Source: Naegleria lovaniensis | Taxonomy: Eukaryota > Heterolobosea > Eutetramitea > Acrasida > Naegleriidae | Reading direction: 5' to 3' | Assembly: GCF_003324165.1 (NCBI RefSeq) | Contig: NW_025407859.1 | Coordinates: forward strand, 124,001 to 188,000 | DNA length: 64,000 nt | Shown: positions 3,588 to 64,000 of the stretch, one piece after another | Position numbering within the stretch: the first letter of the stretch is position 1 | Layout: each line of letters opens with the position of its first letter | Translations under genes and position numbers: made by a program | Notes under the pieces: generated by a model | The model's database searches: none | What the model saw: the letters and a program-made list of their open reading frames with translations, nothing else | What the model was told of the DNA's origin: nothing

Positions 3588-6500
3588 ATGAATTGTTCTC
3601 ATTCCCATCAGCAAGGTGATGATACCATTGATTCTTCCAACACCAGCAATAACAATGGCAAAACAAGTAATAGCAATGGAACAACAACTAGCGGTACTAC
3701 TAGTTGTGGGCAACAGAATGATCACGTGATCGCCACCGTTACAAATCCTTTGACAATCCATTCAAATTCACCACAATTTCAACCGACCAAGAAAAACTTG
3801 GATGATTCCGAATTAATTTCTATGGATTTAAATCAGAATGAATCAGCCCCTTTTCAACCTGCCCAAGCAATGACACAAGCTCATGCTTTCACTGGTACTA
3901 GTAGCGTCACTCAAAAGGAACCTCACACACCTATCGACGATGAAAGAGAATTTCTCTTGACATTACAGGACAAAAATGTCTTGCCTCCACCTCATACACT
4001 TTCCATCAAAGAGGTGACTACACAGTTTCATACCAATGCAGAGCACGGACTCTCTACAACACAGGCACAGGAAAGAATTCAACTATTTGGAAGAAATGAA
4101 TTGAAGAGTCAAGGTGGAATTAATTTATGGAAACTGTTGGCGTTTCATTTATTCACTTTTATGAATTTAATTCTTGCAGTTGCTATGGTGATTTCATTTG
4201 CAGTCACTGAATGGGTGGATGGAGGCGTGGTTGCATTTATTATTGTGTTAAATATCATTATTGGTGTCTTACAAGAATATCGATCTGAAAAGTCCATGCA
4301 AAAACTAAAACGTATGCAACACACCTTTACCAAAGTGGTTCGAAGCGGAACACACAGTGAAATTCCATCTCATCAACTTACATTGGGAGATGTCATCATG
4401 TTGGACGAAGGTGATCATGTACCTGCTGATTGTCGACTCATCTATACAGCTCAATTAGAATGTATGGAAGCAATTTTAACAGGAGAATCCGAACCAGTGA
4501 AAAAGAATGCCAATGTCATCTTTGCACAGAATAAGGAAAGTGCAAGAATTACTGTTCCTCAAGCCTCAAAAAAGAAGAAGAGATGGCCAACCTCAAGAAG
4601 AAGTAGTATTGCAGAAACACCAACCACCACTGATGCTCGAAAGAGTGTTAACGATGGAGGCGTTCCAAACACATCGTTTGATGCAACTAATAGAACTTCA
4701 ATATTTTCTCTTACAAGACCATCCTTCTCGGTTCTTTCCGCCTCTGAAGGCAAACCTCATCATGGAAAACAACCAGTGGTCGATGTAGGAGACCGAATTA
4801 ACATGGTCTTCAGTGGTACAACAGTGACAAGAGGAAAAGGTCGAGCTGTTGTAGCTGCAATTGGTATGCAAACAGAAATTGGTGCCATTGCTCAATCTAT
4901 TTCCAAGCATACACGACAAAGATCAAAATTACAAAAAAGAATGGCTTTACTGGGATTAGTTTTGGTCATTGGTATGTGCAAAGTAATTTTTTAATTTCTG
5001 TGGACTCTATGATGTTTACAACTCTGATTCTATTTGATACTGTTTACAACTCTTGATGTGCACAGCTGGTGCAATTTGCACAGGATTGGTAATATTGGCT
5101 GCTTATCTGCATAAATCAATGCCATTGTTTCCTGATGCGTTGACTGTTGGAGTGAGGTAAGTTTCTTTTAAAGGTTTTTACATGGACGTTTCAAACCCTT
5201 TGTGAACTCTAGTACTGCTATTGCAATTATTCCTGAAGGTTTGAGTCCAGTTCTCACCCTAACTATGACCATTGGAGTCATGAGAATGGCCAAACAGCAT
5301 GCCATTGTTCGAAAATTGGATTCCATTGAAACTCTTGGAAATGTGACAGACATTTGCAGCGACAAAACAGGAACCATATCTGAAGGTGTTATGGCAGTAA
5401 AAGAATGTATTCTCTCCAATGATATGGTTTTTCAAATTTTGGGAGATGATATCGAAATGAAAGAGGTTACTAAAACCTTACAAGCTGCACACACTTCTTC
5501 GACAAGCAACAATGTGACCAATTCTGCAATGGAGACTGCATCTGCTGCTGTTCCTGCCAAGACAACCCCAAAATTGACCTCTTCATCTCCATTGGTGTTG
5601 GTCGATATAGGATTAAAACAAAGGCAAGATCAAATGGATACTCTCTCGCAAGCTCAACCAACAATTGTAACAACCGATTACATTAACCAAGAAAATGATT
5701 TGTTAAAAACCTTTCTCATGATTTCATCCATGTGCAATGGCTGTAGTCTATCGAAAGGAAATGTTGAGGTCACAACAACTACTTCAAAACGAAAGAAACG
5801 AGGAAATATTTTCAAAAGAGTGAAAGAATTTAAGAAGAAGAAGATTGGAAAAACTTCACCCCATGAATTAAAACCATTGAAGAGTGGAGAACCTGGAAGT
5901 GAGGAAGAAGAGCTCTATGTTGGAGATCCTACCGAAATAGCATTGATGACTCTTGCTCAACAGTATGGATTGGGAAAGAAGCATTTGGAACGCTCAGATT
6001 CTTCCACTGAAGCGACCAGTATCGAAGAAGAATTACAAGAGTATGATTCCACTCAGCTGTTTACACTCTTTCAGGAATATCCGTTTGACAGTAATTTGAA
6101 AAGAATGAGTGTTATTTATACGAAAAGGTCCAAAAGAAAACAATCAACAGGAGAGGAAACTGAAACCATTGAAACTAACAATGATGATAGGATGGAAGAC
6201 GATGAATATATTTTTGTTAAGGGTGCGCCAGAGCACGTACTCAATTTTTCCACACACTATTACACAAGTGAAAAACATGTTGGAGTGAATCAATGGTCTG
6301 TCACCAATCATGATAGCAGCAATGAGGATTCGAAACAAACTGTAGCTCCCGTCACACAACGGTATTTAGACCATTTGAGACGACAAAACGAGCTATTGGC
6401 AAAAAAAGGACTACGTGTCCTTGCATTAGCATTTCGAAAACGAGAGCATTTACCCCATTTACTGTCCAATTCAACCAATGCAACAACCTCTGAAAATACT

Positions 6501-7857
6501 TTGGAACATGAGAAAACTCAGGAAGAGAATCCCAAAGATGAAAAGAGGCCATTGTTGACGATTACATCTTCCACGACGGACACCAATTACTATGAAAGGT
6601 CTCAAGTAGAAAAAGATTTAATTTTTGTTGGACTGGTCGGTATTCAAGATCCTCCAAGACAAGGTGTGAAAGAATCCATCAGTATTTGTCACCAAGCAGG
6701 AATTACTGTGAGAATGATCACAGGTGATCACAAAGCTACAGCCGTCGCCATTGCCAAACAAGTTGGAATGGTCACTCCTGAACTATTGGCATCACCTCAA
6801 TCCAATCAAATCGCCATGAATGCTCATGATTTTGATGCATTGACCGATGAAGAGCTACGTAACTTGAAAGAGTTACCAATCATTATTTCCAGATGCTCAC
6901 CAGAAAGTAAGGAACGAATGATTCATGCTCTACATCAGAGAAAAAGAGGAACTGTAATGTGTGGAGACGGAATTAATGATTGTCCATCCATTAAGGCTGC
7001 TGATGTTGGTATTGCAATGGGAAAGTCAGGAAGTGATGTCGTCAAGGATTGTGCAGATATAGTATTAACCGATGATAACTTCTCAACCATTGTGGTTGCT
7101 GTTAAAGAGGGACGACACATGTTTGAAAATATTCGAAAATTTGTGAGCCACTTGCTGGCAGGAAATGTTTCAGAAACGATTTTGTTGGTAGTTAGCTTGT
7201 TAATTGGATTGAAACCTCCATTGAATTCTATTCAAATTTTATGGCTTAATATGATTACTGGAACTGGTAAGTTGTTTGTCACATTGTGATACGTTCGTAC
7301 ATGAATATTGAACAACCATAGGTCCTGCATTTGGTTTGGGAAATGAAAAACCACGTAAAGGAATAATGACCAAGTCATATAGTGGTAAACTTTTTGCACC
7401 AGAAACTATTATTGATATTTTCTTTTTTGGATCATTGATGGGATTGCTTTCATTGGCAAGTTTTCTCATAGCAACCAAAGCTATGAACGTACCGCTGCAA
7501 GAAGCCCAAACCATAACGTTTGTGACTTCCACCGTTTTACTCTTGTTACATGCCTATAATTGTAGAAATTCCAGAAGACCGTTCTTTTTGGATGGTTTTT
7601 ACAATAGTAGACTATTACATTTCTTTGTACTATTTGGAGCTGTGACGACTATTTCCACTGTTTATATTCCATGGGTCAACTCGAACATATTTCATCAGAC
7701 CATGATTCCTGCTTTTGATTGGATTATAGTGTTGCTTGCAGCTTTAATATTCATGGGATTGTCTGAGATTTATAAGTGTTGTAAAAGAATTCTTCTGGTT
7801 ACCATTGTTGAGAGAATCAGAAACTATCGTCGTCATGGTCTGGAGAACATTGTTTAA
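3588..7857 (+). CDS. P-type cation-transporting ATPase, ENA-like (type IID)
   Basis: Membrane ion pump, most similar in pattern to fungal ENA Na+/K+-efflux ATPases. Four exons: 3588-4971, 5066-5156, 5213-7266 and 7322-7857, phases consistent, giving 1,354 residues. Visible motifs are actuator TGES at residue about 298, phosphorylation site DKTGT with Asp about 542, an IPEG motif in TM4, the KGAPE nucleotide-binding motif, and the hinge GDGINDCPS at about 1,076 followed by VGIAMGKSGSD. The tail PAFGLGNEKP after TM6 matches the ENA-type pattern. N-terminal 90 residues are Ser/Thr/Asn-rich. Long hydrophilic insertions lie in the actuator domain (KKKKRWPTSRRSS) and in the N domain, so the protein is longer than the usual roughly 1,000-1,100. 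Ion specificity cannot be read from sequence; Na+/K+ is inferred. Confidence 0.88.
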
Positions 7858-8090
7858 GGAACAAGTGACCTTCAAGATTTGTACAGTACTGAAAAGTAAT
7901 TGACAACTATATTCCAGTGGTGTCAGGATCTGGTTTTCACTTGATCGTATGAATGATACAATCTTCACACGCTTTCCATGAACGATCGTCCAACCAACAG
8001 CTGTGACACTCATTAGTTGTATTTACTGGAATTACTGGCTTCTGATAAACATTAAAAAAATATTAAAATTTCATTTAATTCAACAACATC

Positions 8091-9143
8091 ATGGGTTGGG
8101 ATGAAAATTATCTGTTAGTAAATTATCGGACCGCACACAAGCAATGTATGTAAATAATCTTTATTATTATTTACACATATATTGTTCTGTAAAAACCCAT
8201 TTGAAAATGTTATCTTATTAATAGTGGAAGAGTTGCTTGCGAATGCTCCGATATTGCAAAAAGGTATAGTTTGAATCCAATAATGCCACTTTAATCATTT
8301 ACTTGAATAGTTGCAACGTTACCCGAATCGTTGGAGGTGATTGAAAACGAAAACAACTACAAAGAGGAGGATGAGGATGATCAGGAAACGAAGAAACAAA
8401 GAAATCTGTATCAATTATTAGATACAGCTGCTGATTTTGTTGATGAACAGTTATCCAAATTTGGCCATTTTCACATTACTAGCTTTAGTAATCATTCGCA
8501 TAGATTCGAAGAGAAATTCGCTCGATATTTGGGAATGGAAAACAAAGAACATGTATATCCTCCTTTGAATACGTCTCTTCATAAGCTCTCTAATTTATGG
8601 GAAAAGTATTATGATGGTGATTACATGTTTTTTGGAATACATTATTACTACCGTCGTCGTGTGAATATTGCCGAGTTGAGTCAATTATGTAATCACTCAA
8701 CTGAAATACCAACTTCCTTGCTCGATCATTGCTTTAATATATTCATGAATAAGCCCAAATTGTTAGAACCAAAACAAAAGAAGGTGAAATATTTTACCTT
8801 GTATGCCAATGAGACAAGAGAAGAAAAATGGAAAAGAAAATATTCAAACACCATTTACCTATTTAATGAAATACTAGAAAAGTACAATTCAAAGAACGTA
8901 ATTGCATCTTTATTTGAGAAACCGCCATTGTCCAATGAACCTTCAATAACTACAGTGAATAATAGAGAATTCTTGATTGATGACTATTGGATTACCATTA
9001 TGGAATTTATTGAAGATCCTTTCACCTTATTAAGATTAGCTCGAACATGCAAACAATTTTTTAATTTGTACAGTGAACGAGAGGTGGATTTGTGGATTGG
9101 TTTGAAAAAAGATATTGGATTGGCAATGTCAGCATGGGTTTAA
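8091..9143 (+). CDS. F-box-like protein, three exons
   Basis: Exons 8091-8145, 8225-8263 and 8311-9143 join in frame (GTATGT and GTATAG donors) to a protein starting MGWDENYLLVNYR and totalling 308 residues. The N-terminal half is acidic and rich in Asn/Glu; the middle has aromatic-rich segments (MFFGIHYYYRRR). Near the C-terminus DDYWITIMEFIEDPFTLLRL continues into ARTCKQFFNLYSE, which fits the F-box pattern (helix, Pro, Leu-rich helix, Cys/Phe). If it is an F-box, the product would recruit a substrate to an SCF ubiquitin ligase; the substrate-binding part is not a recognisable repeat. F-boxes usually sit N-terminally, so the C-terminal location is slightly unusual. Confidence 0.62.
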
Positions 9144-48963: not shown

Positions 48964-51150
48964 TCAACGATTGCCAAGCTCATTACTTTTGGAGATGGCA
49001 ATAATTTGTTCCAAGTCATTTTCAAAATCTGTGATCAGTTCCATTGGATCCGAGACTGTCAACACGTCTGAGATGGCACTAAGGCAGAGTTTTCCATTGT
49101 AAGATGAGACAGCAAATGCCAGACCAACTCCAACTGGAGATGGAGCAAATGTCACAATTTCTGTCACTGGAATAGAGTCTGCGCTTAATTCTGTACTCGA
49201 TCCAACAACATTGGTGAATACGCATGTGATCCACTTGGATAAGAAAGCTACCAAAAAGAAAACTATTTCTGCGGGCAAAATGTACGTGAGCTTGGCAAAA
49301 TTATAGGTAAAGAATGGTTCGGGAAGACTTTTAGTCTTGTCAGTCACTTTCTTCACATAGCGGAGTCTCGCAACAGGATCTCGTGTTTTCAAGTCCACAG
49401 GTACAAGTATAAAGCCAAATTTGTTGGACAATTTTTCAAACTCGTCATTGCTCATTCGAATATTGACAGGCATTGAGAAGGTCACTCTTTTTGCCGACTC
49501 TTTGTCTGTTCTTCTCTCAGTAAATCTCATTAACGCTCCAGAAAGTGAATTTAGTACAACATCATTCACAGTAGCATTGTTAAAAGTTTTTCCAACATGT
49601 TTGATGTCGGACACGTCAAATGGTTTAGACCAGCCCACTCTCTTTTCTGTGGATATGGCCGTTTTGAAAACGCTTCTATCTTGACCATTGAGAATTAAGA
49701 GCTTCATCCATTTGATAAACACTAAAAACAATCCGAATAAAAATAATAGGAATTTGAAAAATCTCACGATCAATCCAATGACGGGAACTGATTCTAATTT
49801 GCTGACTGCTTTGGCCAAGAAACGGTCTTTGATCGCAAAAATTTCAAGCTTGAAGTGCTCTTCTCCTTGGTCACAAAACTGAGAAAGAAACATGAGCAAA
49901 CTGGTTCCATCTCCCATGGCATGATGCATTCGGAACATTAAAAGGTAACCCAAAGCCGGACAATTATCAATCACGATAAGCTCCCATAATGGCTTGGAAA
50001 AATCTAAGGGTTCCATTGAGATTTTACCTAGAAATTCTTGAAGGAGTGCCTTCTCTTCTTGTGCTGTATATTCCTTGATGCCACTCTTAGGTACTCTCAA
50101 ATAGCGAACATGCTTTTCAAGATCAATATTTTCATATTCAAGGAAGCTTTGATAATCGTGACTGACAATGGATCTAAATCTTGGATATTTGGAAAGGACA
50201 CGTTTCCTTAATCTGCTGAGAAGCTCTTCATGAGTAATTGGTTTTGCAAGTGTCAACAGACAAGAGCAAATGGTTGTGTTGGTTGGGCGATCAGTAATGA
50301 GCGTCATTTTAGTAATGTGTGAAAGATCTTTCTTGCCAATGGAGTTTCTTCTGATTGGAAGTGTTCCCACAACTTTTTTCGCAATGGAGGAAATGGCACT
50401 CTCGGAAGATGATGTTTGTTTTTCAAGTGACACCTCGGAAGATGTCTCACCTTTTTGTTTCTCTTCTACAAGATTGGTGTTTGAGGTCCGAATTGATCGG
50501 GTTGAGGAATTACCGTCATTACGCTCTAAATGTTCTTCCTTTCCTTCGTCTATATCACGAGGACTCTCCTGAACGTCAGCACCCACGATTTGTTTCACTC
50601 TTTCAAAAGTTTCTTGAGACTCTTGTAAAATTTCAGAGTTTGAGGCTTGTACTCCATCCATCATTTCTTGATGTCCATATTCCTCAACCTTGTGAGACAA
50701 GTCGTCATATGAGGGTTTAGGATGTGTATCTTCTTCTGCAACAACTTTGATTTGAACATCAGTATGCTCCTCATTTGGATGTTCCTTTTTTGGCTCTCGC
50801 TCTAACAGTGAGTTGTCCATTTGTAGAATTATTTTTGAATTATTTGATGGTTGCTTGTTGTGATGATGTAATTGTTGATCGTGGCCATCCCCTTGTTGTT
50901 GTTGCAATATTTCTTCGTCAGTACTAGAACCAATGGCTGTATTTCTCGAGTGGTTTTCTTGCTGATCATGATTTAGGAGGTCCTTCGATTGAGTATTGTT
51001 CAACAAATCATCCCCTTCGCTTTCCTCCTTGGTTGGAGAAGTCACTCTGATAAACTCATCAAGAGTGAGGCTAGGTGCATGCTTCCGATGATGGTGTTGC
51101 TGCTGTCCACGAGGAGAGAGTTGACCTTGTTTTTGTTTCCTTTTCGCCAT
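48964..51150 (-). CDS. WS/DGAT-family acyltransferase (wax ester/diacylglycerol)
   Basis: Makes wax esters or triacylglycerol from acyl-CoA. Single exon, 728 residues. The catalytic HHxxxDG motif reads MRMHHAMGDGTSLL at residue about 409. The C-terminal DUF1298-like half has NATVNDVVLNSLSGALMRF, VTFSMPVNIR, the structural NKFGFILVPVDL segment, and FTNVVGSS, then the closing SYNGKLCLSAISD. A hydrophobic segment near 450-475 (IGLIVRFFKFLLFLFGLFLV) would place it in the ER or lipid-droplet membrane. The first 230 residues are a long disordered Gln/His/Glu/Ser-rich extension that is not part of the family core (bacterial and plant forms are about 450-520 residues). Confidence 0.88.
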   Translation of the reverse strand: MAKRKQKQGQLSPRGQQQHHHRKHAPSLTLDEFIRVTSPTKEESEGDDLLNNTQSKDLLNHDQQENHSRNTAIGSSTDEEILQQQQGDGHDQQLHHHNKQPSNNSKIILQMDNSLLEREPKKEHPNEEHTDVQIKVVAEEDTHPKPSYDDLSHKVEEYGHQEMMDGVQASNSEILQESQETFERVKQIVGADVQESPRDIDEGKEEHLERNDGNSSTRSIRTSNTNLVEEKQKGETSSEVSLEKQTSSSESAISSIAKKVVGTLPIRRNSIGKKDLSHITKMTLITDRPTNTTICSCLLTLAKPITHEELLSRLRKRVLSKYPRFRSIVSHDYQSFLEYENIDLEKHVRYLRVPKSGIKEYTAQEEKALLQEFLGKISMEPLDFSKPLWELIVIDNCPALGYLLMFRMHHAMGDGTSLLMFLSQFCDQGEEHFKLEIFAIKDRFLAKAVSKLESVPVIGLIVRFFKFLLFLFGLFLVFIKWMKLLILNGQDRSVFKTAISTEKRVGWSKPFDVSDIKHVGKTFNNATVNDVVLNSLSGALMRFTERRTDKESAKRVTFSMPVNIRMSNDEFEKLSNKFGFILVPVDLKTRDPVARLRYVKKVTDKTKSLPEPFFTYNFAKLTYILPAEIVFFLVAFLSKWITCVFTNVVGSSTELSADSIPVTEIVTFAPSPVGVGLAFAVSSYNGKLCLSAISDVLTVSDPMELITDFENDLEQIIAISKSNELGNR

Positions 51151-53569: not shown

Positions 53570-55849
53570 ATGGAAAGCACCACTAAGAATACTACAAAAT
53601 CAAGAAATCATGAACACTTGGGAATTCTGATGCAGAATTACAATTCTCTCCCTCATGCCGCTTATCTCCAAAAATCAAAAAAAATGTTGCAACCACAAAC
53701 ACCCATCTCAAATTTTGATCATTACCACTCCTCGATCAACAGTGGCATCGACCGCTCAGTTCCTTTCTCTCCAATGAGTCCTTTCGACTCTCGTAAAAAT
53801 CCCTTGTGCCGTGAGTTGGGGAAACTATTCCAATATGAGTTTTTGATCACTCCCGAAAATTTATTTCCCGTGTTTTTGGGCAAAGCCAATGATTTGGTAC
53901 GGCTTTTATGCTATCAGGATTTTGGTAATAGTTTCACCAAACAACAAGCTGCTTCAACACTTCTCAAATACCAACGTGATGACTTCCAATCCGTAGATGA
54001 AGATATCTTTGAAGCAGAGATCATTCCGAGTTTGTGTGAGTTGTTGAATATTCAAGCCTTTGATGCTTTTCAAAACGTCAACACTACAACGGAGAACAAC
54101 AATTGCACTCTCGACATGTCTAATACCAGTAATAATAATAATTATTTGCCTGAGTCTATCCAGCAATACGTTAGCTCTGAACCAAATGATATACAGTTCA
54201 GTTCTTATGCCATTTCTGAACAGGATCAAGCTATTCTCTCTCCACCTCGGCATGAAAGAGGATCCACAATTGTACCTTTTGATCTAAACGACATTGACAT
54301 GCTGACTAGAATATTTCATCACATTATTCGAACCAGTAGAAAGCTGTTTTGGATTCTCAATATTCGAACACAATCTGAAAAATCTTCCAAGTTTCAAGAT
54401 TTAGACTTTACAAATCTATCAATAACCATGAAGCGCCATCCTGTCCTGAGAAATGAAGCATCTCATTATCTAAAGAAACTGAAAGCCATTCGAAACGAAT
54501 GGGCCCATTTCATTCACAAAAACTCACAAGTTCCTTCGGATCAAATGAATAAGGCCTTTATTTATTCCCTCAGAATATACAATGAGTATTTGGCAGTGAG
54601 TAAAACAGCTCAAAGCATGAAAGCGATTGAATATGCCGAAAAAAGAAGTCACTCAATGTCTGAACTTCAGCTAACATACAAGCATTTGAAACAAAAGAGA
54701 AATTGGACTTCTTCAATAGTCAACATGTTCTATAGGAATGCAGAACAAGGAGATTTAGAAGCCAATGCAAACTCTACACTTTTACAAGTTTTGAAACAAG
54801 TGATACAAAAGCTGGAACAAGATCCCAATTCATCCGAAGCCAGACTCTACCAAAATGCATTTCTACTCGATTTCATCCCTCAATCACCACAATTGTTTTC
54901 ATGTCTCAAAGAATTACGAGAACAAGATCTTACTCAACAACAAATCATGTACTACGAACTTAACAACAAGTATCAATTATTACTCCAAGAAACACAAGCG
55001 GCCACTAAGAGCATCAACCCATATTATTTGATCGATCAGCGTTTCATTGACACGAAAACATTTTTTGCATCGGTCGTGGTAGAATTACAACAAACTAAGG
55101 ATCCAAGACATAGGACCTTTTTAAATGCATTTTGCTTGTATTTGGTAAAAAAGGCTCTTAAAAAGCTAAGAGAAGAGCATGTACAGGTTTCTGACTCGGC
55201 AATTCAAGAGTTTTTACAAAAAAGAGCCATATTGAATGATGAGAACACTTTTTCCCAAGTTTTGGAAGGAGAAATTAAGAAACAATCTCAAAGATTTAGA
55301 ATGTTTTGGTTGGTATTGGCTAATGGAATGTATCACTGCTGCAACAACAGTTTACATATCGCAATTTTGAACTTTGCCTGGTGTCAGAGCTGTCTAGAAG
55401 ATCCCACATTCCTTAATTATCCGAACATGAAAACACCCTTCGAATATACGGTACGAATTTTTATTGAACGATGCACCTATTGGTTATCCGAAGAAATTTA
55501 TAGAACCTCTTTCACTCATTTGAATATTAATGCAGTGAAACATCTCATTCATTATTGCTTGGTGTGTTGTAGAAAATTTTCAAATTTCGACATGTCACAA
55601 TCATACTCAATGGTAGCAGACACTCTTTCCAGAGCTCTCAACAATCAAGAGATTGTGAACCAACTTAATGAGGAAGATGTATTACTTGTTCATTCACTCT
55701 ATTATCAAAAAAGCGCACTGGACATGTCTCACATGCTCAAACCAGACATTAATGTTTTTCTTGATCAGGATAAGCAATCAAGAATTTCAATTGCTGACGA
55801 AGCAAGAATGCGCTACCAAGAAGCATTTGATCGTTTATTTGCTCATTAG
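53570..55849 (+). CDS. Large unknown protein with HEPN-like RNxxAH motif
   Basis: Single exon, 759 residues, MESTTKNTTKSRNHEHLGIL. Residues 1-85 are disordered. Two helical segments around 85-160 and 240-345 follow; the second contains AIRNEWAHFIH at about 307-317, where Arg308 and His313 fit the RX4-6H signature of HEPN domains, with the Asn after Arg typical of HEPN RNases. The context (helix, IRNEWAH, short loop, helix MNKAFIYSLRIYNEYLAV) matches the last two helices of HEPN folds such as those of Swt1 and DZIP3. The C-terminal 350 residues are helical and unassigned. If the motif is real the protein may bind or cleave RNA. The family is an inference from one motif. Confidence 0.55.
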   Translation: MESTTKNTTKSRNHEHLGILMQNYNSLPHAAYLQKSKKMLQPQTPISNFDHYHSSINSGIDRSVPFSPMSPFDSRKNPLCRELGKLFQYEFLITPENLFPVFLGKANDLVRLLCYQDFGNSFTKQQAASTLLKYQRDDFQSVDEDIFEAEIIPSLCELLNIQAFDAFQNVNTTTENNNCTLDMSNTSNNNNYLPESIQQYVSSEPNDIQFSSYAISEQDQAILSPPRHERGSTIVPFDLNDIDMLTRIFHHIIRTSRKLFWILNIRTQSEKSSKFQDLDFTNLSITMKRHPVLRNEASHYLKKLKAIRNEWAHFIHKNSQVPSDQMNKAFIYSLRIYNEYLAVSKTAQSMKAIEYAEKRSHSMSELQLTYKHLKQKRNWTSSIVNMFYRNAEQGDLEANANSTLLQVLKQVIQKLEQDPNSSEARLYQNAFLLDFIPQSPQLFSCLKELREQDLTQQQIMYYELNNKYQLLLQETQAATKSINPYYLIDQRFIDTKTFFASVVVELQQTKDPRHRTFLNAFCLYLVKKALKKLREEHVQVSDSAIQEFLQKRAILNDENTFSQVLEGEIKKQSQRFRMFWLVLANGMYHCCNNSLHIAILNFAWCQSCLEDPTFLNYPNMKTPFEYTVRIFIERCTYWLSEEIYRTSFTHLNINAVKHLIHYCLVCCRKFSNFDMSQSYSMVADTLSRALNNQEIVNQLNEEDVLLVHSLYYQKSALDMSHMLKPDINVFLDQDKQSRISIADEARMRYQEAFDRLFAH

Positions 55850-55940: not shown

Positions 55941-58274
55941 ATGATCACAGAATCAGCAATGGATGGCCTGACTTTGCTTTCCTCGGTTCGAGATCCCCAT
56001 GAGAGAACTTTGAACGTGGAATGTGTAGTGCTGAGAATCAAAAGATGTAGGTGATTTGTTGAAAACGTAAATGTTCCGAATTTTTGGCTTACTGATTGTG
56101 TTGTATTAATTACGTGTATATGGTTCCGATCATCACACCACCAGTTCATATTGATTCCCATTTTCTTCATCTCGCTGATATTCACATGTTTCATGATAAA
56201 ACATCCAACACTTCCGATGACATTGGAGTTTCGAATCAACCAACCACAAATTCCTTTCAGAGTCTCACCCATTCCTTCATTCCCAAAGATGCGTTTGAAT
56301 TAACTGTGACGGATGGTACCATGGCTTTAATCATCATTCTCTCTCCCGTGATGAATTCAATGATCATACAGTCTCAGATTAAAGAACATACTCTTATTCG
56401 AATCACAAAATTTAAAGTTTTAATGGATGAAAAAGTGAAAGGAAAGCAAAAACGAACAATCTTTATTCACTCATTAGAAGTGGTTTCACAAAATAACTTG
56501 GAATATTCTCTGGATGATTTTACTGAAATTTTAGATGAAGAAAAGGGAAATATTCGTCCCATAATGTCCGAAAGAGGATATTACATGCCCTTACTGGATG
56601 ATGATAATTTTGATTTTGAAATGTTTACTGGAACAGTTCCACAAATTGTAAGTTTTCATTTTGGCCAACTTTGACGGTTTGGAACTCAACTGACCATTTA
56701 TTAATTTAAATTAATTTTTTGACTAGTCACTCGAAGATCCAACACCTGATGAAACTTGTCAATTGGCAGAAATTATTGCAAGTTCTAAAAGAAATTCATT
56801 TTTTGCTAGAATTTACAAAAAATCGAAAATTCGATATTATGGAAAGACCTATGAAGAGAAATCATATCCAATGTTTTATACGCTCTTGATCACAGACAAG
56901 TCAACACCAAAAGGTGTGCCTGTTACCATATGGAATGATCTTGCTTTACATTCATACGCAGAATTGAATGTTGGAGACATTATCATTGTTAATGACTACC
57001 GAGTGAAGCAATTTTTTGATTCAGGAGTATTTACTGTCAAGTTTAAGAATGAAATTTCGATTAATTCATCCAAAACAGAGCAGCCAATTCAAAAAATTGA
57101 TCCCAAACAGTTGGAAGATATCAAGGAGTTTGCACCTTTATCATTTCCTGTGTCAACGATTAATGAAATTATGGAACTCTCACTCTCTGACACAACTGTC
57201 AATATTCTAGGAGTAGTTGTGAATGTTGGACCCTATCGAAGAGAAAAATTTCATTCTCAATTTTCTCAGTACAAATACTTGACATTGGTAGACCCTAGTT
57301 CAGTACAAATGATGTCTGTAAAATTGTTCACAAATTCCAGGAAGAGTTTATTAGATTCGGTGCAAGTAGGGCAAGTAATTTTTATCAGTGATCTCCGTGT
57401 GAAACAAATTTCAACATCGATCGAGGACGACTCGGACAAGTTTATCTTCTTGGAAAGTACATTTGTAACTCATTTCTTTACAGAAGAGTACTTGAAAGGT
57501 TCAGGATTTTTCTCCATTGTTGAACACTCGAACGACATGAAAACACAAGTTGAAGCAATATTTTCATGGCGAAATAAGACAAGGAAAATAATTAGGAAAT
57601 ATATGGATTGTTCAATCAGCGATTTTGACATGCATGGAGTATCACGCGAATATCCACTACCAGAATATCAAGATTTGGAGTCTTTCAAAAAAGCACACCC
57701 GACTGTCAAGTGGATTTATTTCAAGGAATTATTCGAGATTCCATCAACTCTAGTTTTTGAGGAAAACCAAATTATCATTGTCAAGTGTATCATCAATGAT
57801 ATCCAAATTGAACGTCAACAAAAGCGAAAGCGATCACAAAATGATTCCACTCCAGGAAGGAATATGAAATCACCATCTAAGAATGCCCTCATGAGCGACA
57901 CCCTGAACAGTCACAACACCTTTGAACAATATTCAGAAACAAGCTCTGAACCTGGGTATACTCTATTGCGTATGGAGACTGAAAGTGTGAATGGAGATCG
58001 ACGATTGGATCTGGTCATTCCTGTTTGGAACATGGAATTTACTCACCCCTCCTACACGTCACTTCCAGAATTTGTAAATGTTTTAGACGAACATTTGGAA
58101 GTCATGTTGCAACACCAGAGTACTGACTCGCAGTTTGATACTCTCGATCAAGTGGTTGATTATTATAGACAAGCTGTCAACGGTCAGTCGTATATTTGTG
58201 TGGTTGAAATTCTTTGTGTGGGACATGCAGAATGCAAATATTTTGTGAATCACATGTTTAAGGATGAACTTTGA
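55941..58274 (+). CDS. RADX-like protein (RPA1-related, multiple OB folds)
   Basis: Single-stranded DNA-binding replication-fork factor of the RADX (CXorf57) type, related to RPA1. Three exons: 55941-56046, 56145-56647 and 56727-58274 (donors GTAGGT and GTAAGT), 718 residues. N-terminal OB fold across exons 1-2 includes FELTVTDGTMALIIILSP and TLIRITKFKVL, like the RPA70 N domain. The second OB fold in exon 3 has SFFARIYKKSKIRYYGKTYE and GVPVTIWNDLALHSY, a close match in pattern to human RADX, which has the same K-S-K-x-R-Y-Y-G-K core and a V-x-x-W-N-x-L strand. A third OB segment (NILGVVVNVGPYRREKF) and a C-terminal domain (ICVVEILCVGHAECKYFVNH) also align in order. A basic disordered linker lies near 555-600. 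Splice site 1 is the least certain. Confidence 0.78.
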
Positions 58275-58375: not shown

Positions 58376-59401
58376 TCACTCATGCCTCAATATTGCTTCT
58401 CTTAACTGCTGTAACTTGCTCTGAAATAGAATGGGTCTTATTTTGGAAGACTTATCTTCCATATGATCCTCACCACTCACCTGTATCGGTACCCTAATAA
58501 ATACAGAACCACTGGCTCTTGTTGATTCATCGTCCGCGTCTTTGGCTATTACTGGAGTTTCTGCATTAATTTGACGTAATTTTTTCAACATTTCCATGTC
58601 TAGACAGCTAGTTAGCATGATACGGTCGATCGTTACCTTTTCCTCTTCAAATAAATTAGAAGCATCTACGTTCGTATCAGGAACGAAATATTTACAATTT
58701 TCCAAACAAGATATGGATGGTGGTGCGATCTTTCTTTTCGATGTTTTTTGAGAGGATGACAATTCAAACGGTGCAGAATAGACTTGAGAAATTCTACTTG
58801 TAATAAATAGAGGCTCATCCCATTCCAACTTGTGAACTTTTTGTGACTTGTGGTTGAAATCATTGAATGTTTGCACCATTTCATGAATTTCCTTCTCAAC
58901 ATTTTCCAAATCAAAAAATCTGAGTTCCATTCCAGAAGTTGACGCATCGTGCTCAACAGCATACAGTGTGGACCACTTGGATTGTTGATTCTTTCGATCA
59001 TAGTAGTCAATTTTCCGTAACTTGTCCACCATGTTTTGTTTCCTTCTCATTTCTTCATTCTTTTCCAATTCATTTACAATTGTTTTTTTAAATTTCTTTT
59101 TAAAAGTCGTGAGCGCTTGTTTTTGTAACAGGGTATTTGGTTCTTCCTGTGCCATTTGTTTACTCATCATCATCATGGGACACCACGTGAAATAACATTG
59201 TTCCTTGTCTTGTTTTTTTCTTAGTTTATAAAGAGATCTCCAAGTTCGGATCAATAATTTAATTTTGCATATGGTAATTTCCGTATTGGAATTATTAATG
59301 CTATTCATGAGTATTGGGACTGTTATTTGATGATAAATTTTATCAAAATATTGGGCAGTCTGTTCTTGAAAAATGTTCAATAAGTGTAATCGCTCTTCCA
59401 T
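58376..59401 (-). CDS. Unknown protein with possible 60-nt in-frame intron
   Basis: Open frame of 341 residues, MEERLHLLNIFQEQTAQYF. N-terminus helical, centre basic and coiled-coil-like (FKKKFKKTIVNELEKNEEMR), then acidic. Near the end a sequence of exactly 60 bases (58421-58480) starts GTGAGT after CAG and ends TATTTCAG, so it looks like an intron, but it has no stop and is a multiple of three. Splicing would shorten the protein to 321 residues, giving VPIQ directly followed by SKLQQLREAILRHE. No family recognised. Convergent with the RADX-like gene (101 bases). Confidence 0.5.
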   Translation of the reverse strand: MEERLHLLNIFQEQTAQYFDKIYHQITVPILMNSINNSNTEITICKIKLLIRTWRSLYKLRKKQDKEQCYFTWCPMMMMSKQMAQEEPNTLLQKQALTTFKKKFKKTIVNELEKNEEMRRKQNMVDKLRKIDYYDRKNQQSKWSTLYAVEHDASTSGMELRFFDLENVEKEIHEMVQTFNDFNHKSQKVHKLEWDEPLFITSRISQVYSAPFELSSSQKTSKRKIAPPSISCLENCKYFVPDTNVDASNLFEEEKVTIDRIMLTSCLDMEMLKKLRQINAETPVIAKDADDESTRASGSVFIRVPIQVSGEDHMEDKSSKIRPILFQSKLQQLREAILRHE

Positions 59402-62295: not shown

Positions 62296-64000
62296 ATGGC
62301 TCCAAAGCAAACCACCACACCCAAGAAGAAAAAGCAAACCTAAGGGACATCCACCCCCAGTTCATCATCACCACAACCCTCACCTTCATCGACAGGAAAG
62401 AGAAAGACTCCACCTCCAGAAAAAACCAAAAACATTACTGCCAAATATGATGAAGAAAATGATGATCGTCAAGCTATGCTTCCACAAGCATCTCCAACTG
62501 AATCTTCGACCAAGAAGAAACGTACATCCAAAGGTTCATCCTCATTGGCGTCAAGTTCTGTGCTAAATTCAACCAATGTCGTTGGTTCCTCATCCTCCTC
62601 AATTACATCATCCTCTTCAAGCGCTAAACCAAAGGCGATACCAATTCCAATGCCAACGAACGCATTCCAATGCACATGCGAAAGTATTAGCGAAATATTT
62701 AGCAAATTTTTATATGTCATCCCACCGATTCAAAGACCCTATGAATGGGAACCTGAAGATGTGATCAAGTTGTGTCAAGATATTTCAGAAGCTTTGGATC
62801 GACAAGATCGAAGATATTTCTTGGGAAACATATTGTTGAAAAACACTTCTCGGCTTCTTAAGGACAATCTCACACCATATACACTCGAGTCGATTATTGA
62901 CGGACAGCAGAGATTAATTTCACTCTGTATCATTTTTACAGCTCTACGTTCTCTCATTGATCCTGCACATGCAGCGGCAACAGATATTAATCGTTACTTG
63001 AGATCAGAAAAATCCTGGCACAAGCAACAAGAACGAATTTTGATTGAAAATGATCGCCAAGTTTCAAGTGACAACATTTTCTTCAACAAGTACCTCGTTG
63101 ACGGTGAATTTTTTAAGAACATTTCTGATCAGATTACAAAAAAGAACAAGTTTAATGAATATTTGGATGACTTGGAACAGAAGGAAATTATTTATTCACA
63201 ATCCACACGCCAAATCGCTAAAAATCTACTTTGTACCAGATATTTCTTGAAAAAGAAATTTAAGAATGAGGGCCCTTTCAAACCTGCAGCCGCAGCAAAC
63301 AGCCATTCAGCCAGGATAGTCCTCGCTGCCGAAATTATTTTCGGATGCAATCAACAGAATCCTTTGGCATCCGGTTGAAACAGGATTTTTGCGGCTGAGA
63401 TAGGATTTCCCTCTGAAATTTAGTTAGAACAGAAGGTGAAAATGAGTTTGTTATTTTCAGTACTTTGAATTGCCGTGGAAGAGATTTATCTTCAATGGAT
63501 CTTTTAAAGTTGGAATTTGGTAAATATTTCAAAGAAGACACAACTATGAATGCCATGCAACAATGGATTGAAATGTCTCAAGATTTGAAAGAAGATTGTT
63601 TTTCATTGATCTTTGAATGTATTTACATCTCCCGTCCAAAGACAGACGTTACCACCATTCGCACTTCTCATGCACAACGAAATTATGGGAAAATGTTGGA
63701 AGAATTGGCATCCGAGACCTCAATGACACAATTAGAATTTGTGAATAATTTCATGAATCCTCTTTATCAAGCGTTATCAACTTTAAAGAAGAAGGAGGAA
63801 AGAGAAAAGATGGATCCAGTTCTCATCAACAAGCTTCATGTGATTCATTATATTACTGAACATTATTTCCAGAAAGCAGGACGTGAAGCCTCACTTGTGA
63901 TTATGATGCTCCTGTTGGCCATATATCAATGTAGAGAGGAAGAAAAGGAACTCTTTTCAAACACGTTGCATCATGTTACATTGACATGTATTGAAACTCT
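62296..64000 (+). pseudogene. DUF262 (GmrSD N-domain-like) gene with in-frame stop, runs off window
   Basis: The ATG at 62296 follows six A and opens MAPKQTTTPKKKKQT, then an in-frame TAA at 62341-62343; the same frame then stays open to 63375 through a Ser/Pro/Lys-rich linker into the DUF262 core: FLYVIPPIQRPYEWEPEDVI, RYFLGNILL and ESIIDGQQRLISL (the nucleotide-site DGQQR motif). If translation starts at the internal ATG 62476 the domain is intact; the upstream good start makes a nonsense change likely. A second exon from about 63424 (acceptor after CTCTGAAATTTAG) reads RTEGENEFVIFSTLNCRGRD then LSSMDLLK, the expected next DUF262 block, and stays open to 64000. The join between 63230 and 63424 is unresolved. 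In bacteria DUF262 occurs in GmrSD-type restriction of modified DNA; here its role is unknown. Confidence 0.66.

Follow-up and report, generated by a model that had tools for sequence, protein, structure and literature searches.

The window analysed here is a stretch of 64,000 nucleotides (bases 124001-188000) of Naegleria lovaniensis contig NW_025407859.1, a contig of 443,920 bases (C38) in a genome of 30.69 Mb and 97 contigs. The S-adenosylhomocysteine hydrolase of this genome is identical to PDB 5v96, a Naegleria fowleri protein, at 429 of 440 residues (counted by eye), in support of a heterolobosean origin and most likely of a Naegleria near N. fowleri yet separate from it. The window contains a RADX-like gene, the features of which are as follows (window coordinates).

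55941..58274, + strand: RADX-like gene; three exons, 718 amino acids
55941..56046, + strand: exon 1; start codon and first part of the OB1 region; in-frame join, donor GTAGGT
56047..56144, + strand: intron 1; 98 bp, GT-AG
56145..56647, + strand: exon 2; RPA70N-like OB1
56648..56726, + strand: intron 2; 79 bp, GTAAGT to TAG
56727..58274, + strand: exon 3; OB2, OB3, C-terminal region and stop
56808..57050, + strand: OB2; contains KSKIRYYGK and VTIWNDL
57051..57413, + strand: OB3 region; aligns to RADX within the full-length protein
57414..58271, + strand: C-terminal region; 286 residues without detectable family

A sequence-only reading of this DNA had proposed the same coordinates, three exons and a product of 718 residues, and this model was borne out. 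The three exons join in frame to give 718 residues with a single terminal stop, and both introns bring in in-frame stops on read-through, so that splicing is needed to obtain the protein. The ranges searched offer 10 GT-AG joins that stay in frame and open for intron 1, and 16 for intron 2; in either list, the join adopted (donors GTAGGT and GTAAGT) is the one that retains the most residues. The gene at 55941..58274 is real.

Neither of its direct neighbours, at 53570-55849 (+ strand, 759 amino acids) and 58376-59401 (- strand, 341 amino acids), matches a Pfam family above the cut-off. Elsewhere in the window, a homologue of wax ester synthase/diacylglycerol acyltransferase is encoded at 48964-51150 (- strand; WS_DGAT_C, 6.2e-29), and the protein encoded at 62476-63378 (+ strand) matches GmrSD_N, the N-terminal domain of a restriction endonuclease (E 7.8e-22); here a domain of the prokaryotic defence type occurs in the genome of a protist.

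Relationship to RADX and other OB-fold families

The whole protein matches six Pfam families, only two of them above the cut-off: RADX (PF17659; E 1.8e-19, 69.6 bits against a gathering cut-off of 33.4) and DUF5088 (PF17008; E 6.3e-10, 39.5 bits against 29.4). REPA_OB_2 (5e-5), Rep-A_N (8.3e-5), CDC24_OB3 and DUF936 fell below it. A search of 177,635 distinct PDB sequences returned nine matches at E <=10, among which only RADX (8u5y, E 5.6e-19) lies in the significant range; POT1 comes next (0.58), and the remainder comprise urease in 4 rows and Replication factor A in 3 (best E 0.66). NCBIfam yielded two weak matches, one of them to an archaeal-type 'replication factor A' (26 bits, cut-off 442).

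The alignment with 8u5y pairs residues ~83-429 with RADX 92-446, and 88 of the 340 aligned residues are identical (26%). When the protein was shuffled 1000 times, no shuffled sequence reached its alignment score against RADX 92-446 (z ~39), and the same result (0/1000) was obtained separately for residues 1-203, 204-330 and 331-432. By these alignments, the match to RADX covers OB1 to OB3, residues ~83-429, in both order and sequence. We consider it very probable that the protein is a homologue of RADX (CXorf57; PDB 8u5y, 8u61), from which it differs in length (718 residues, against 855 in the solved chain), in its modest identity and in a C-terminus that is not recognisably that of RADX.

Taken piece by piece, the likeness to RADX is strongest in OB2, with BLOSUM z-scores of 10.9, 18.0 and 9.0 for OB1, OB2 and OB3, respectively, making OB3 the least RADX-like. 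Exon 2 alone matches Rep-A_N just below the cut-off (E 6.6e-6, 26.5 bits against 26.7) and RADX at E 0.0022 (16.4 bits, also below), and exon 3 alone exceeds the cut-off for both RADX (E 1.3e-14, 53.5 bits) and DUF5088 (1.5e-9). OB2 by itself (56727-57050) is sufficient for a RADX match above the cut-off (E 4.5e-10, 38.5 bits). The order that had been read from the sequence, an RPA70N-like OB1 followed by OB2 and OB3, is supported at the level of sequence, the Rep-A_N match of exon 2 lying just under its threshold.

The two motifs reported for OB2, K-S-K-x-R-Y-Y-G-K and V-x-x-W-N-x-L, are present as KSKIRYYGK and VTIWNDL; their counterparts in the solved RADX chain are KSKLRYYGK and VIMWNAL, so that the RYYGK core and the WN motif are common to both proteins. 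The description of this core as RADX-specific stands in part. Because some of the OB2 core is also found in the amoeba's own RPA1 (ITQKSDLKHW), it is only in R-Y-Y-G-K that the core seems to resemble RADX and not RPA.

OB3 alone gave DUF5088 (3.8e-5), POT1 (6.1e-5), RADX (0.0011, 17.4 bits) and CDC24_OB3 (0.0015), none above the cut-off. The combined OB2-OB3 piece gave RADX (56.3 bits), DUF5088 (44.1 bits), REPA_OB_2 (27.4 bits, just above its cut-off of 27) and, below the cut-off, SHLD2_OB1 (0.0036). The POT1, CDC24_OB3 and SHLD2_OB1 matches, together with the position of POT1 as second PDB match, could point to another OB family (POT1, CDC24, MEIOB or SHLD2-like), but none of these families exceeds its cut-off, whereas RADX and DUF5088 do, and we regard such an assignment as very improbable.

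The DUF5088 match spans residues 230-432 (window 56805-57413) and profile positions 1-171 of 184, overlapping OB2-OB3 of RADX. Since DUF5088 matches the amoeba protein and is not listed at E <=1 for the solved RADX stretch itself, the amoeba protein bridges the two models. This suggests that DUF5088, an uncharacterised Pfam family, is a divergent relative of RADX.

The array of OB folds, the RPA70N-like first OB and the weak REPA_OB_2 match are also features of RPA1/RPA70 (TIGR00617, PF16900, PF04057, PF08646). We therefore considered whether the protein is a divergent RPA1 paralogue that merely resembles RADX, as the sub-threshold REPA_OB_2 and Rep-A_N matches of the whole protein, the slight excess of REPA_OB_2 over its cut-off on OB2-OB3 and the OB2 core partly common to the amoeba's RPA1 would allow. 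Searches of the genome were made in six frames with only the best candidates scored, and reciprocity covers PDB chains and the amoeba's own genome. The rpa1 model TIGR00617 matched five places, one on contig C27, three on C28 (one of these only at E 0.37) and one on C19, and none on the contig of the RADX-like gene. The C27 protein is an ordinary RPA1 by Pfam and by its best PDB match (8rk2, RPA70, 3.1e-61), and it matches the RPA1 C-terminal model PF08646 at 1e-23; neither PF08646 (Rep_fac-A_C) nor TIGR00617 is listed for the RADX-like protein in Pfam and NCBIfam. The genome thus encodes a complete, separate RPA1 on C27, beside which further RPA1-like places occur at C28:32560-34058 and C19:70051-70392.

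Conversely, the RADX profile matched a single place in the 30.7 Mb genome at E <=10 (best candidates scored), the RADX-like gene. The 355-residue RADX stretch matched two, exon 3 and exon 2 of this gene, exon 2 ranking second (E 0.06). DUF5088 also matched one place, and exon 3 matched only itself at E <=0.001. RADX is not listed at E <=1 for the amoeba's RPA1 or for the 5' frame of the RPA1-like gene on C28. In a direct BLASTP comparison, exon 3 scored 67.8 bits against the RADX stretch (E 9e-17) and 22.7 bits against the amoeba's own RPA1 (E 0.035). The best match is therefore RADX in both directions, among PDB chains and within the genome, and not ordinary RPA1. The protein is set apart from RPA1 and was found as a single copy, and a paralogue of RPA1 seems a most unlikely identity for it.

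The C-terminal region

The sequence-only reading had also placed a related C-terminal domain after OB3, where RADX has its domains 4 and 5 and its oligomerisation surface; this claim was not confirmed. For residues 433-718 we obtained no Pfam match at E <=10, and a PDB search with residues 400-718 returned no RADX chain at the same threshold. Against RADX 92-446, a reference that excludes the RADX C-terminus, 640 of 1000 shuffles of residues 433-718 reached the score. The RADX alignment runs to profile position 585, hinting at kinship beyond OB3, but we discounted this extension because adding C-terminal residues lowers the score, from 56.3 bits for residues 204-432 to 54.5 with 433-589 and 53.5 with 433-718. 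The urease matches of the C-terminus in the PDB (best E 0.23) are not significant and were taken as chance.

Since no relatives were confirmed in prokaryote genomes or viral contigs (25 and 8 pattern matches, respectively), AlphaFold was run without an alignment; the resulting models were unusable (pLDDT 30.6 for exon 3 and 40.4 for residues 540-718). No closely spaced cysteine pair occurs in the RADX-like protein. The missing zinc-ribbon pair was dropped as an argument against RPA1 because RADX too may carry a zinc ribbon: PMC11377751 contains a passage that may be taken to place one in its last OB domain. Taken so, the missing pair counts against the RADX reading of the amoeba protein.

RAD51, BRCA2 and the proposed role

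The genome encodes RAD51 (514.6 bits against a cut-off of 478.05) and, at C10:323500-333400, a BRCA2 homologue (two reading frames, 3639-4682 and 4508-8350) with helical and OB1 domains. By eye, we counted 16 F-x-x-A units in these frames, mostly ETFGFVSAS-like; they precede the helical and OB1 domains, and we take them to resemble minimal BRC repeats in a dense array. RAD51 and BRCA2 thus accompany RPA1, and the genes for the partners and opponents of human RADX occur together here. Domains of two fork-reversal enzymes, HARP (SMARCAL1) and HIRAN (HLTF), gave no match in unspliced six-frame searches of the genome; these are weak negatives on the side against the role proposed below.

In human cells, RADX restrains RAD51 at stalled DNA copying sites, balancing BRCA2. 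The protein condenses ssDNA and blocks RAD51 loading, according to passages of PMC7430644; capping of filament ends is proposed in a passage of PMC12810152. Sections of PMC8902620 assign ssDNA binding to OB2 and the RAD51-binding surface to OB3. A human OB2 mutant described in a passage of PMC7430644 carries 10 changed residues, of which 8 can be aligned with the amoeba protein. Five of the 8 are identical (R240, R248, K252, W279 and K304) and three differ (K255 and K256 are replaced by E, R310 by G); of the remaining two, E327 falls in a gap and A73 outside the alignment. This partial conservation is consistent with ssDNA binding but does not prove it.

By analogy with human RADX, from which ssDNA binding, RAD51 antagonism and a fork role of the amoeba protein are inferred, this multi-OB-fold protein, separate from RPA1, would bind ssDNA via OB2, together with OB1 and OB3. 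It would compete with RAD51 for ssDNA, contacting RAD51 through OB3, and RAD51 filaments would thereby be limited, balancing BRCA2. We somewhat favour this combined reading, a RADX homologue that binds ssDNA and limits RAD51 loading.

A protein that belongs to the RADX family by descent could instead lack RAD51 antagonism and, with its different C-terminus, protect ssDNA more generally or take part in a different repair step. The C-terminal region (57414-58271), without detectable kinship to RADX, would agree with this, as passages of PMC8902620 report that domain 5 of human RADX (744-855) helps to form the oligomers on which function in cells depends, and that E842K, K847D and Y849A disrupt these oligomers. 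OB3, the human RAD51 contact in the same passages, is also the least RADX-like of the three domains (z 9.0, against 10.9 and 18.0). However, at 26% identity the sequences may have diverged enough to conceal a C-terminal fold that is conserved, and RAD51 and BRCA2 genes are present; such a non-antagonist role appears possible but rather doubtful.

Implications for the origin of RADX

RADX is treated as a mammalian or human factor in the parts of PMC7430644 and PMC8902620 consulted, and a review table in PMC12810152 gives no yeast counterpart in the portion available. In the open-access literature searched, no paper was found that names both RADX and Naegleria, none on DUF5088 and none joining RADX with QVPK; among the matches listed there, the titles and abstract starts report no RADX outside vertebrates.

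RADX-type control of RAD51 may be much older than animals. Tentatively, and at somewhat less than even confidence, we propose that a very early eukaryote already had RADX and that Discoba have retained it alongside BRCA2 and RAD51. The balance of RADX and BRCA2 over RAD51 would then be ancestral rather than an animal invention, the C-terminal oligomerisation module would have been replaced or reshaped along this lineage, and DUF5088 would be the protist form of RADX OB2-OB3. Lateral transfer, or a broad distribution of RADX that has gone unreported, may also account for the gene.

As a very probable homologue, the gene would place RADX in Discoba, far removed from animals, and its OB1-OB3 match suggests these domains as the parts of RADX under the oldest constraint. 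The overlap with RADX OB2-OB3 allows a first guess at the function of DUF5088. With a heterolobosean homologue accompanied by RAD51, RPA1 and BRCA2, an early origin of RAD51 antagonism would become testable in a simple cell.
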